A DNA stretch of 6,815 bases from Deltaproteobacteria bacterium (GTDB lineage Bacteria > Bdellovibrionota_F > JAHFAK01), in assembly GCA_023250585.1 (NCBI GenBank), contig JAHFAK010000061.1:6819-13633 (forward strand), read 5' to 3'. Numbering within the stretch: position 1 is the first letter of the stretch; each line of letters starts with the position of its first letter. This document shows, one piece after another, positions 411 to 5,333 of this stretch. Position numbers and translations under genes: made by a program. The notes below the pieces were generated by a model. The model was not told the origin of the DNA and did not search any database. It saw nothing but the letters and a program-made list of their open reading frames with translations.

Positions 411-1328
411 ATGGCCGAAGAAACAATATTTAAAAAGGTCGAGAATTTAACCGCACAAAAAGGCAAAGGGCGTGAGCCTGTGTTTGTTGTTATTTTAGGC
501 GAAGGATCAGGAAAGACCTTTCGTCTCAATAAAGAGCGTCCCACGGTCCTTGGTCGGAGTAAAGAAGCAGATATCACTCTTAATGATACCAGTATATCCA
601 GAAAACATGCGGAAATTACAACTTTGGGAAGTGATAAAGTTGCTATTCTTGATTTGAATAGCACCAATGGGACATTTGTAAATGGCAATCGCATCAAAGA
701 AGCAAATCTTCAAGATGGAGATAAGATTCAGCTGGGCGATTCATTGATTTTAAAATTTAGTTTTCAAGATGTTCTTGAAGAAGAATTCCAAGAAAATTTA
801 TATAAATCAGCAACGCAAGATTCTTTAACAGGCATTTATAACAAAAAATTCTTTATTGATACGTTCTCAAAAGAATTCAGTTACAACAAACGAGGTGAAG
901 AAGTATTTAGCCTGATCATGTTTGATATCGACCATTTCAAAAAAATTAATGATACCCATGGTCATCTTGCGGGAGATTTTATTTTAAAGAATGTTGCGCA
1001 AGTAGTTGTAAGAGAACTGCGCAATGAAGATGTTTTCTGCAGATATGGCGGCGAAGAATTTACGATTATTTTAAAAGGCCAAGGAGCAAATCCATCGCGA
1101 AATCTTGCAGAAAGAATACGTAAAGCAATTTGTAATGCAAAGTTTGAACATGATTTAAAACAAATTCCTGTGAGCATTAGCCTTGGGATTGCGACATTCG
1201 ATAAAAAAGGAAAATTTAATGAATATAACGATATGATTAAAGAGGCAGACAGTTATCTTTATAAGGCAAAAGAACATGGACGTAATCAAGTGTGTGCCGA
1301 AGAGATAACCGCTGAAAATAATCAATAA
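411..1328 (+). CDS. FHA-GGDEF diguanylate cyclase
   Basis: Predicted cytoplasmic diguanylate cyclase of 305 aa, condensing two GTP into c-di-GMP. An N-terminal FHA domain (about 25-117) shows the phosphothreonine-binding pattern: GRS at 48-50, SRKH at 63-66 and NSTNGTFVNG at 83-92. A short helical linker leads to a GGDEF domain (about 136-294). The catalytic GGEEF is at 213-217, the metal-binding Asp is in FDIDHF (D172), and N180 and D189 are the expected guanine contacts. The inhibitory I-site RNED (204-207) sits exactly five residues before GGEEF, so product inhibition is likely intact. D189 is Asp rather than the Ser linked to cGAMP-making Hypr enzymes, which favours c-di-GMP. No membrane segment is seen, so control probably comes through binding of a phosphothreonine partner by FHA. 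The ATG at 411 is chosen because GAGGTG (401-406) lies four bases upstream; an in-frame GTG at 399 has no SD. Confidence 0.93.
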   Translation: MAEETIFKKVENLTAQKGKGREPVFVVILGEGSGKTFRLNKERPTVLGRSKEADITLNDTSISRKHAEITTLGSDKVAILDLNSTNGTFVNGNRIKEANLQDGDKIQLGDSLILKFSFQDVLEEEFQENLYKSATQDSLTGIYNKKFFIDTFSKEFSYNKRGEEVFSLIMFDIDHFKKINDTHGHLAGDFILKNVAQVVVRELRNEDVFCRYGGEEFTIILKGQGANPSRNLAERIRKAICNAKFEHDLKQIPVSISLGIATFDKKGKFNEYNDMIKEADSYLYKAKEHGRNQVCAEEITAENNQ

Positions 1329-1349
1329 ATTTGAAAATTAACAAGCAAC

Positions 1350-1467
1350 TAAGAGAGGCGAAGCATCTTCTTTTTGTATTTTCTATCGAGCGCGCTTTCT
1401 GTTCTTAAAATTATTATGGAAGCGACGTTGGTAGAAAATACAAAAAGAAGATGCTTCGCCTCTCTTA
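1350..1467. repeat. Long perfect inverted repeat, MITE-like element
   Basis: The arms 1350-1385 and 1432-1467 are perfect reverse complements over 36 bp around a 46-nt centre. The centre can form a second short stem (CGCTTTC at 1393-1399 with GGAAGCG at 1418-1424, one G-U pair). Each arm ends in the dinucleotide TA (1350-1351 and 1466-1467). With TA counted as a target duplication, the core is 114 bp with 34-bp terminal repeats, the layout of non-autonomous MITEs mobilised by IS630/Tc1-type transposases. No coding potential is seen inside. A transcript crossing it would fold into an unusually long hairpin that is a potential RNase III substrate. The right arm contains the ATG at 1451 and reaches to within eight bases of the preferred start of the protease gene. 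The structure is seen directly; a mobile origin is inferred, because no second copy lies in the window. Confidence 0.85.
1360..1382 (+). terminator. Possible weak terminator in the left arm of the inverted repeat
   Basis: GAAG (1360-1363) and CTTC (1367-1370) form a 4-bp stem with a CAT loop, followed directly by TTTTTGTATTTT. It lies about 30 bases past the cyclase stop codon and could end that transcript. The stem is short, and the same bases also belong to the 36-bp arm of the larger hairpin, so its activity is uncertain. Confidence 0.25.
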
Positions 1468-1474
1468 TATACCT

Positions 1475-4408
1475 ATGAATGTTTTCTTAGAAAACCTGAA
1501 AATTCAGATTAAAGATATCCTTGAACAAGACGGTCAATTTTCAATTTATAAGACAATAGCTGAGACGCTCAATATATCAAATTTCAAGCCTGAGCTCATA
1601 TCTCACATAACAAAAAAGGAACTTTTCTCCAAAAAAGAAGAAAAATATTTTGTTATTCGTAATGATAATGAAAAGACGTACTTAAGGCTTTCTGATGATG
1701 ATAATTCTATTGTTAGTACAATTGACGGCACAAGATCAGTCAATGAACTTTTACTCGAATATTTCTTAAAGACTAAAAAACTTGCCTTAAAGAGAATTAT
1801 AGAGCTTATTCGATCGCTACGAGAAAAATATTTTCTAAAAGAAAAACCTATACATGCGTATCATTTACTTTCGCTTCAATTAAATAATACCCGAAGTAAA
1901 CGTATTTTGCAGAAACTCAAAAAGTTGTTTTTTAGTTATAAGATAGAATTTCATAAACTTGATGGCTTGTTGTCAAAGTTAACTACTCCTTTATCTCATC
2001 TAGTTACCAATGCAGTAATTCGGAGCGGATTACTGCTTTTTTCCTGCGTGGGACTCATTGCATTTACGTATATTTTTATGACAGGTGAATACAATCTTTT
2101 TAAAGTTAAAACGTCATATAGCTTAGGATATGCATTTACGTTTATCATTAATTTGGCAATTGTTTCTATCCATGAATTAGCGCATGCCCTAACTATAAAA
2201 GGGTATGGGCGTAATATTAATTCTGCTGGATTTATATTCTACTTTGGGTGCCCATGCTTTTATGTTGATAGCTCTGATATGTGGTTATCAGACCGAAAAA
2301 AACGAATAACTGTTTCATTGGCAGGACCATATTCTACAATGCTTTTAGGCGGACTATTTTCCATTATCGTCTATTTTTTTCCAGAATATACGTACAATCC
2401 TACTCTTTTTAAACTTTCATTCTGGTGTTACATATCCTCTCTTCTCAATTTAAATCCACTGCTTGAACTTGATGGTTACTATATATTGATTGATTATTTT
2501 GAAAAACCAAATTTGCGAAAATACTCTTTCCAATTTATAAGAAATAAACTTTTTCCAAAAATAAAGAATAAAGAACCATTCAGCAGAGAAGAAAAGGTAT
2601 ACAGCGCTTATGGAGTCCTGGCTTTTTTGTGGGCGATCTTTGCCACCATCGTTACGGTGTTTCTTATTAAATTTCGTTTGCATAAAATATTTACCGATGT
2701 TTTGCAAGGCCACGAACTCCTACCAAAAATTGTTTCAATTGCAGTATTTATTGTATTAGTGTTGCCCGTTGCTCTTTCCTTACTGTATTTAGGTCTAACA
2801 CTTTTGAAAAAAATTCTAACATATATTTTTCATTTATCTGTTTGGAAAAATAATTATGCTGTTTTGGCTGCAGCTTTCATTGCTCTTTTTTCTCTTGATA
2901 TAATTCTGTATGTGCAAGCCCTCGACTGTATACTTCCGATCATCGGCTTGTTTTACGGGATGGTATTTTATTTTATCTTTACCTATAATGTATTTTTTAA
3001 TTTCGCTCGATTCACGTATCGATACAATTTCTTAGCATTTTTTTTATGTGTAAATCTCATTCAATTTTTTTTATTCTTTCCTAATTCATTACTGATCAGT
3101 CAACTGCAGCTTTGTCTTATTCAGGTTGTATTTTTATGGATGAGTTATCTTTTTTTAGTTGTTAAGAGATTTCGCTTTATAGGAAAGGCTCAGGTGCTTT
3201 TACAACAAGGCATGAGCGAAAATGCGCGGCTCAAACGATATGTATCATTTCTCGTCGAATTTGCATTTGAGAATATTCCACGAATTTTAAATGAAAAAAA
3301 AGTTCCGATTTTTGTAAATGATATAAATGAATTTTCAAAAAAAAATAATATTAATCTCAGCATCAAAGCAAATAAGCTTATCTTTACTGAATCTGAGACA
3401 AGTGTTTTTGAATCAAAAAAAACACATATTCATTTTCTTATGCATTTCTTTAAAGCGATTGAATTACATGTTGGAAAGAATTTAGTCGCTCATTTTTTAG
3501 AGGAAGCATACAACAAATCTCCATGGGTTGATCGGGAAATTGCATACGAATATTTTTTAAAACACTTACCCTACAATATTATAAAAACGAAAGAAGCATC
3601 TCGGGACATATTTAGCTTAATTGCGAATAACCCTATTTTTTCTGATATTGAGGAGGAAGCGCTTCGGTCGATTTTAACCTATTTTAATAAAAAAACATAT
3701 GAGCCCAACGAACTTATTATTAAAAAAGATGAAGGAGGAGATACTTTCTTTGTTATTATTGAAGGAGAGGTTTTAGTTTATGATATTGAACACGGCGAGA
3801 AAAAGAATATTACTTCCCTCTACAAGGGAGATTATTTTGGAGAGATTTCACTGATCAAAGATATTCCCCGAACTGCATATATCCGCGCAGTTGAAAAAAC
3901 AGACGTGCTTACTCTTACAAAGGCTCAATTTGATACATCGATTAAGCCTTTTATTAAAGGCTTTGAACGCGTGAGTATTAAAGTTGAGACGCTCAGTCTT
4001 ATTAAACAAATTCCCATTTTTACGGAACTCTCGAATGCTCAAATTTCAGAGCTCGTTAAAGTAATGGAACGCCAATCATTTTGTCCGAAAGACATGATTA
4101 TTCGAGAAGGTGAGATAGGGTCTGTTTTTTATATTATTGCAGAAGGAAAAGTTTTAGTAACCAAAAAAGACAAGGCCGGCATTGAACGAGAAATTACGAC
4201 ACTTTCAAAAGGAGAGTATTTTGGAGAGATTGCTCTCTTGCTTGAAGTTCCCCGAACTTCTTCCATTCGGGCTTTTTCTGCTGTTGAAGTTTTTTCTTTG
4301 AAAAAAGAACATTTTGATGCTCTAATTAAAGACAATATCCTGTCAGGCGAAGGCCTTGAAATGACGTCGACAAGACGTATGCATGAATTAGAAATTATAG
4401 GTGTGTAA
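1475..4408 (+). CDS. M50 site-2-type membrane metalloprotease with PqqD-like N-terminus and tandem cyclic-nucleotide-binding domains
   Basis: Predicted 977-aa inner-membrane zinc protease. Residues about 60-122 resemble a PqqD-like domain. The M50 core (about 181-400) has HELAH (233-237) in a membrane helix, the GCPCFYVD and LAGPY segments, and NLNPLLELDGYY (from N325), which supplies the third zinc ligand, D333. This matches the 'peptide zinc metalloprotease' branch of M50. About ten hydrophobic helices run to residue 563; those after about 418 form a second membrane block of unknown role. A soluble linker I do not recognise (about 570-720) leads to two CNB domains (about 720-826 and 846-952). 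Their phosphate-binding cassettes are FGEISLIKDIPRT (E790, R799) and FGEIALLLEVPRT (E918, R927), both with the conserved Glu and Arg nine residues apart. Cyclic-nucleotide-gated intramembrane proteolysis is inferred. The in-frame ATG at 1451 would add eight residues, but it lies inside the inverted repeat with no spaced SD. ATG 1475 lies outside the stem but also lacks an SD, so the start is uncertain. Multiple A-tracts occur in the linker. Confidence 0.9.
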   Translation: MNVFLENLKIQIKDILEQDGQFSIYKTIAETLNISNFKPELISHITKKELFSKKEEKYFVIRNDNEKTYLRLSDDDNSIVSTIDGTRSVNELLLEYFLKTKKLALKRIIELIRSLREKYFLKEKPIHAYHLLSLQLNNTRSKRILQKLKKLFFSYKIEFHKLDGLLSKLTTPLSHLVTNAVIRSGLLLFSCVGLIAFTYIFMTGEYNLFKVKTSYSLGYAFTFIINLAIVSIHELAHALTIKGYGRNINSAGFIFYFGCPCFYVDSSDMWLSDRKKRITVSLAGPYSTMLLGGLFSIIVYFFPEYTYNPTLFKLSFWCYISSLLNLNPLLELDGYYILIDYFEKPNLRKYSFQFIRNKLFPKIKNKEPFSREEKVYSAYGVLAFLWAIFATIVTVFLIKFRLHKIFTDVLQGHELLPKIVSIAVFIVLVLPVALSLLYLGLTLLKKILTYIFHLSVWKNNYAVLAAAFIALFSLDIILYVQALDCILPIIGLFYGMVFYFIFTYNVFFNFARFTYRYNFLAFFLCVNLIQFFLFFPNSLLISQLQLCLIQVVFLWMSYLFLVVKRFRFIGKAQVLLQQGMSENARLKRYVSFLVEFAFENIPRILNEKKVPIFVNDINEFSKKNNINLSIKANKLIFTESETSVFESKKTHIHFLMHFFKAIELHVGKNLVAHFLEEAYNKSPWVDREIAYEYFLKHLPYNIIKTKEASRDIFSLIANNPIFSDIEEEALRSILTYFNKKTYEPNELIIKKDEGGDTFFVIIEGEVLVYDIEHGEKKNITSLYKGDYFGEISLIKDIPRTAYIRAVEKTDVLTLTKAQFDTSIKPFIKGFERVSIKVETLSLIKQIPIFTELSNAQISELVKVMERQSFCPKDMIIREGEIGSVFYIIAEGKVLVTKKDKAGIEREITTLSKGEYFGEIALLLEVPRTSSIRAFSAVEVFSLKKEHFDALIKDNILSGEGLEMTSTRRMHELEIIGV

Positions 4409-4663: not shown

Positions 4664-4906
4664 ATGAGTAATCGAAAGGTTTTAAGTTTATCCCTTCCGT
4701 ATAGTCTCTTAAAAGAAATTCATGAAATAGCAAAAGATGAAGAGATTACTAAGAGCGAACTTTTGCGGCAGGCAATTCGGGATTTTATGGGTCGCAGAAA
4801 ATGGGAGAAAGCAAAAAAAGCGGGAAGGCGTGCTGTTCGTCAAATGAAAATTACTGAAGCTGATATTGAGGATATTGTTCATGCTTACCGGGAAAAAAAA
4901 GCTTAA
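4664..4906 (+). CDS. Ribbon-helix-helix (CopG-family) antitoxin
   Basis: An 80-aa, highly charged protein. Residues 4-11 (RKVLSLSL) form the DNA-binding beta strand, LPYSLLKEIHEIAKDE the first helix, and TKSELLRQAIRDFM (29-42) the second, with the TKSE turn typical of the RHH/CopG fold. The basic and then acidic C-terminal part (about 45-80) would be the disordered toxin-binding tail. Upstream lie a strong SD, a promoter and a palindrome that suit autorepression. The gene overlaps the PIN toxin by 26 bases, as is common in type II toxin-antitoxin pairs. Family assignment from the fold pattern and the partner is firm; which toxin activity it blocks in vivo is inferred from the pairing. Confidence 0.88.
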   Translation: MSNRKVLSLSLPYSLLKEIHEIAKDEEITKSELLRQAIRDFMGRRKWEKAKKAGRRAVRQMKITEADIEDIVHAYREKKA

Positions 4907-5333
4907 GGTTGTTTTAGATACCAACGTTTATATTTCAGCCCTTTTGTTTTCAGGTATTCCTGAAACAATTATTGAATTAGCGCGAGACGGTGATTTTGAA
5001 CTTATCATTTCACCGGATATTCTTTTTGAAACAGGAAGAATTCTTCAAGAAAAATTCAAATTTTCAAAACAAGAAGCACTCTATGCACTTTCAGAAATCC
5101 GGAGAATTGCAACTATTGTATATCCAAAAACAAGGATAACTCACATTAAGGATGATCCGACAGATAATCGAATTTTAGAATGCGCGTCTGAAGGATCGGC
5201 CGATTATTTAGTTACCGGAGATAAAAAGCATTTGCGGAAACTAGAGAAATTTCAAAGTTGTACTATACTCCTCCCCGCAGAATTTATTAAAAAAGACTTT
5301 CACAAAGAATTATACAATGAAAACAATTTCTGA
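4881..5333 (+). CDS. PIN-domain toxin (putative TA toxin of the COG1569/TIGR00305 type)
   Basis: A 150-aa predicted metal-dependent ribonuclease. The acidic PIN active-site residues are visible: D13 in VVLDTNVYISALL, E50 in SPDILFETGRIL, D92 and D95 in DDPTDNRIL, and D114 in LVTGDKKHL. The set appears complete, so the enzyme is probably active. The DTNVYISALLF opening and DDPTDN...TGDKKHL pattern match the 'putative toxin-antitoxin system toxin component, PIN family' group rather than classical short VapC. ATG 4881 is chosen because GAGGA (4868-4872) lies eight bases upstream inside the antitoxin gene. An in-frame TTG at 4866 would add five residues but leaves no SD. An A8 run (4893-4900) lies in the overlap. 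The toxin end overlaps the ACT-domain gene by 17 bases. Confidence 0.88.
   Translation: MLTGKKKLKVVLDTNVYISALLFSGIPETIIELARDGDFELIISPDILFETGRILQEKFKFSKQEALYALSEIRRIATIVYPKTRITHIKDDPTDNRILECASEGSADYLVTGDKKHLRKLEKFQSCTILLPAEFIKKDFHKELYNENNF

Follow-up and report, generated by a model that had tools for sequence, protein, structure and literature searches.

The locus

The window, that is, the whole 6,815-nt stretch of DNA analysed here, carries a long perfect hairpin in the gap between two genes on the same strand (Table 1). The initial annotation had placed it between a cyclase and a protease gene, and domain matches agree: an FHA-GGDEF protein is encoded on the 5′ side and an M50-like protein with cNMP-binding domains on the 3′ side. 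The ATG of the latter lies 7 nt past the right arm, and no Shine-Dalgarno sequence is found between the two. Further along, positions 4664-5333 hold two overlapping genes, for a ribbon-helix-helix protein and then a PIN-domain protein, in a toxin-antitoxin-like layout.

Read directly from the sequence, the two 36-nt arms are exact reverse complements across a 46-nt spacer, as had been claimed. A perfect 36-bp pair would arise by chance within 6.8 kb with a probability on the order of 1e-16. A longer, imperfect version of the inverted repeat is also listed for the same hairpin. The outer stem continues inward past the perfect arms and is separated by a 3x3 interior loop from a second stem of 7 bp (1393-1399/1418-1424), which is capped by an 18-nt loop. 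The stability predicted for the RNA is borne out by folding (-76.3 kcal/mol, z = -15.9), and the DNA fold is likewise stable (z = -12.8). Should the cyclase and protease genes be co-transcribed, the hairpin would form about 45 bp of double-stranded RNA, which is likely to be an RNase III site, the length and stability of the predicted stem being permissive.

Table 1. Coordinates of the genes, hairpin parts and related hairpins (positions without a contig prefix refer to the window)
Feature	Position	Strand	Description
FHA-GGDEF diguanylate cyclase gene	411..1328	+	Upstream gene; Pfam FHA, GGDEF; stop 21 nt 5′ of hairpin
Left arm	1350..1385	+	TAAGAGAGGCGAAGCATCTTCTTTTTGTATTTTCTA; exact reverse complement of 1432-1467
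Outer part of left arm	1350-1378		Copy-specific
Inner part of left arm	1379-1385		Common to copies
Conserved core	1379..1438	+	Inner arms, interior loop, inner stem and terminal loop; ~60 nt; common to ~79 copies
Stem extended inward	1386..1389 with 1428-1431	+	G-T at 1386-1431 and at 1388-1429 in the window copy
Inner stem, 5′ side	1393..1399	+	CGCTTTC; partner 1418-1424
Terminal loop	1400..1417	+	TGTTCTTAAAATTATTAT; kept across copies
Inner stem, 3′ side	1418..1424	+	GGAAGCG; partner 1393-1399
Right arm	1432..1467	+	36 nt
M50-like peptidase gene, two cNMP-binding domains	1475..4408	+	Downstream gene; M50 match just below Pfam cut-off
GGATCCCGYGGTCAAGCCRCGGGATGACA hairpin within the frame	C14:27182, C93:2428, C15:415, C48:15298, C62:5099, C82:1686, C61:23134, C117:35722		
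Family B copies (L185-L190)	C100:13823, C25:11335, C101:3386, C75:17420, C163:5923, C6:5516		

A family of dispersed hairpins in one genome

A search of the same genome with the core returned at least 40 matches, and a covariance model trained on 30 copies placed the hairpin at 79 distinct sites, a count that is at least 79 since the best 150 candidates were scored. The genome, of 2.24 Mb, therefore holds about 79 copies, the hairpin of the window among them, in keeping with the dispersed, MITE-like repeat proposed in the initial annotation. What the copies have in common is the inner arm and the loop (about 1379-1438), and the repeat unit extends past the 36-bp arms into outer arms that are private to each copy; the outer arm of the window copy differs in every other solo copy (defined below). 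Stems are mostly 35-47 bp long.

The copies all lie within or border intergenic gaps, with few exceptions in which a long or short ORF call crosses the repeat, and the core points both ways relative to neighbouring genes. This placement of strong hairpins with T/A runs within their arms is what a family of bidirectional transcription terminators would produce. Such a function is hardly plausible, as no T-run follows the stem (a point made before for the right arm of the window copy), the search returned no terminator-like site, and convergent gene pairs, which account for 22% of intergenic bases, hold 2 of 35 solo copies and are thus not enriched.

No copy turned up in the 289 other genomes searched or in the class relative G001. 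Neither the exact core nor the protease has a match in the genome contigs searched, and the repeat family has none in the viral contigs or plasmids searched. In G001, the only class relative compared, a distant M50-cNMP protein is encoded in different surroundings; the 386 kb searched there contain none of the hairpins and lack any perfect arm of at least 22 nt. Comparisons between copies come from one assembly, 96.7% complete, and the order and direction of change are read from these copies because no relative offers an empty or orthologous site.

Framed and solo copies

Two forms of the repeat can be told apart by motif, with four copies corrected by hand and a few assignments arguable. In the framed form (42 copies), the hairpin sits inside a miniature element of about 157 bp with GTAA...TTAC ends, bearing GTAATSCCTCAGTTATTAG on one side and the longer GTAAYRGCTCAGTTAATGGGGGAGTTAG on the other. 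The end motif, with at most one mismatch, occurs at 122 sites versus 7 for a reversed-pattern control. Exact 8-bp target duplications flank 13 framed copies, which shows the framed form to be mobile, and four more copies match at 7 of 8 positions. Short, multi-copy, without coding capacity, and with inverted ends and target duplications, the framed form has the general properties of a MITE. It may be mobilised in trans by a DDE transposase. No transposase carrying GTAA/TTAC ends was found in the assembly, and the IS66 DDE domain (PF03050) has no match in it at 96.7% completeness. Two wide pairs of end motifs, on contigs C60 and C42, were considered as an autonomous partner and rejected, as they hold ordinary genes. 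Adjoining the genes for ribosomal proteins L27 and L21, the C60 interval (459-3939, L138) encodes three proteins from a single strand. Two are long, with many calcium-binding DSDGD-type repeats, and the third is shorter.

A different hairpin, GGATCCCGYGGTCAAGCCRCGGGATGACA, occupies the GTAA/TTAC frame at eight loci (L140-L143, L145-L147 and L153; Table 1). Exact 8-bp duplications are present in four of these copies, and short matches to this hairpin occur in 9 of the 289 other genomes.

The solo form (37 copies, the window copy included) lacks GTAA/TTAC ends. No target duplication rises above shuffled flanks around solo stems: totals at 4-5 bp equal those of shuffled flanks, and those at 6-8 bp are slightly higher with an inconsistent offset. 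Solo copies do not appear to be decayed framed copies either, since the flanks of 35 of 36 hold no end remnant and one of 36 exceeds the 99th percentile of shuffles. With neither ends nor duplications of their own, solo copies may be mobile, by extension from the framed form.

A more specific origin had been proposed in the initial annotation, namely an IS630/Tc1-type MITE with a TA target duplication. It drew on TA at both stem ends of the window copy, and one IS630-type DDE gene does exist in the genome. The two TAs count as a single fact, being the palindrome's own last base step. TA opens three of the 37 solo stems, and in no solo copy does it lie outside both ends. The sole IS630-type gene found (DDE_3) is a short open frame, 149 aa long as listed among the ORFs, and its 3.4-kb locus contains neither the core nor corresponding ends. 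Framed copies, for their part, end in GTAA and are flanked by 8-bp duplications. An IS630/Tc1 origin is accordingly highly improbable, for want of both the TA rule and a partner element, and what stands of the proposal is the dispersed, MITE-like repeat. The short DDE frame, at L195 on C118, adjoins IS3-like fragments, and the locus is probably a graveyard of insertion sequences.

Concerted change of the two arms

Pairing of the outer stems is nearly complete across the family. Among 2450 cells from 70 alignable copies, 2420 are Watson-Crick (98.8%), 14 G-T, 4 A-C and 12 other, and 52 of the 70 copies are perfect over 35 pairs. The covariation score is 0.705, versus 0.167 for shuffled arms and at most 0.20 when the arms are slid. 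The differences between copies are overwhelmingly two-sided: the 27 closest sibling pairs, which are partly non-independent, show 39 double versus 4 single changes, and a minimum spanning tree of the copies shows 384 versus 30. In C105:7914, C19:13248, C7:3734 and C146:3280, loops are identical and all differences are whole base pairs. Two-sided changes that dominate even between recent siblings are the mark of an actively corrected palindrome. The absence of mismatches had been taken to suggest either recent insertion or active maintenance; it is the latter that the excess of double changes supports, while the arms of solo copies are 39% different from one another with pairing intact, contrary to the former.

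Arms and loop diverge to different extents, with outer arms differing by 31% between framed and 48% between solo copies, versus 10% and 14% for the loop. That the loop is conserved in old-looking solo copies while the arms drift suggests either a recognised loop or faster-changing arms. The loop is also found in either orientation. Relative to the unequal frame ends, its two orientations are represented by 19 and 16 copies, and C7:3734 and C146:3280 carry the same arms and the same loop in opposite orientation.

Private arms whose similarity declines outward from the core, on stems whose end points vary, could also result if the outer arms were never inherited: at every insertion, target DNA beside the element would be copied to form a fold-back arm, private and perfect from the outset. 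This reading is very unlikely given that the outer arms of solo copies keep a positional consensus (leave-one-out scores for columns 1-13 are above those of shuffled arms in 20 of 33 copies, p<0.05) and that framed copies retain GGAGTAGG-ATGTT arms despite differing insertion sites. A consensus shared in register points instead to outer arms that were inherited and then drifted jointly.

The stem could also be under selection in the transcript, within a structured RNA that acts as a leader, processing site or source of double-stranded RNA, and covariation would be ordinary compensatory evolution. The very stable RNA fold, the conserved loop and the tight placement of copies within co-directional gene pairs all agree with this. 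On the core strand, the 30 non-Watson-Crick cells include more G-T (14) than A-C (4), an excess compatible with some selection at the RNA level. Against it, G-T makes up only 0.6% of cells, and one-step intermediates are almost missing, even in siblings one pair apart. The core occurs in both orientations relative to genes, and on the mRNA strand of copies between co-directional genes G-U (5) is not preferred over A-C (6). No known structured RNA family matches either, Rfam giving nothing above its gathering score in the window. Selection on an RNA as the main cause of the pairing is for these reasons unlikely, and correction or exchange of the arms at the DNA level appears to be the better fit to paired sibling changes together with a loop in either orientation.

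A model for arm correction

The hairpin of the window probably belongs, as a solo copy, to a lineage-specific family of non-autonomous palindromic repeats whose arms are corrected or exchanged at the DNA level and whose framed form is moved by a transposase. In this model, a mutation in one arm would be copied into the other at the DNA level, so that the arms stay complementary. Copying may proceed through template switching during replication or through intrastrand repair, and exchange between the arms would also flip the loop. Perfect arms, paired changes, rare wobble and loop inversion would then share one proposed cause, the copying of one arm from the other in DNA. The loop and the inner arm would be kept because something recognises both.

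The stretches examined, those around copies and end motifs, also show a second family (family B; six copies in the genome, Table 1) built on the same plan, with a different loop, TTTGCTTCCTCTTATAAAACTTCACTGAGCAAA, and private arms. Five copies were measured: the arms are perfect over 40-46 bp in four and interrupted in one (L186). In the copy at L189, GTAATCCGGCAGTTAT stands before the hairpin and resembles a frame end. Apart from these, a third perfect inverted repeat occurs in two copies (L109:671-790 and L126:4049-4150), which have GTGCCCGGCAACTTTC in their arms and differ in their loops. The existence of at least two unrelated loops, those of family B and of the family described above (family A), raises a broader and decidedly tentative possibility, that of a class of mobile hairpins defined by their loop, in which any arm sequence would be tolerated because each arm is constantly recopied from its partner, with inversion of the loop as a side effect of that exchange. 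Where a hairpin is repeated, strong covariation is not in itself a sign of a functional RNA, as a DNA mechanism may supply nearly all of the pairing signal here.

Comparison with known systems

IS66-type elements have GTAA ends and produce 8-bp duplications. The framed form shares both features, and its likeness to IS66 consists of the ends and the duplication length alone, the assembly holding no IS66 transposase. REP elements with their RAYT transposases (PMC3733652) are high-copy palindromic extragenic repeats, as here; those REPs are 20-40 bp long with a GTAG or CGTC tag at one end, compared with mostly 35-47 bp for the present stems, whose flanks show no conserved tag. Also comparable are prokaryotic MITEs such as the Correia/NEMIS elements and QMITE2 of Coxiella (PMC10969869, PMC2649163), which are likewise short and non-autonomous, with terminal repeats, target duplications (7-9 bp in QMITE2) and stable hairpin transcripts; Correia-bearing mRNAs are cut by RNase III. 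In those elements, however, the ends are conserved, while here it is the hairpin tip that is conserved and the arms that drift in concert, and solo copies have no recognisable ends.

The LIMP/HyLIMP repeats of the Lobosphaera incisa mitochondrion (PMC4524435) resemble the present family in being dispersed intergenic palindromes with an invariant loop in either orientation, in paired changes that restore Watson-Crick pairing in HyLIMP stems, and in the insertion of some copies within another repeat. Long LIMP stems interrupt RNA coverage, and maintenance of the arms has been hinted at for HyLIMPs (PMC4524435). LIMPs differ in their pentanucleotide-repeat arms, organellar location and 19 copies, compared with non-repetitive arms, a bacterial genome and about 79 copies here, half of them within a miniature element with 8-bp duplications.

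Long inverted repeats in nematomorph mitochondria are similarly perfect or absent, with few imperfect ones, and active repeat conversion, with template switching named, was inferred by the authors (PMC6649704). These repeats are intragenic, and no family with a common loop is described for them, whereas the present copies are homologous, which allows paired changes to be scored from sibling to sibling. Template switching is already known from reporter genes to correct imperfect palindromes, as established in E. coli (PMC7202029); a single genome with dozens of homologous long palindromes of different ages could make the rate, tract length and loop inversion of such correction readable.
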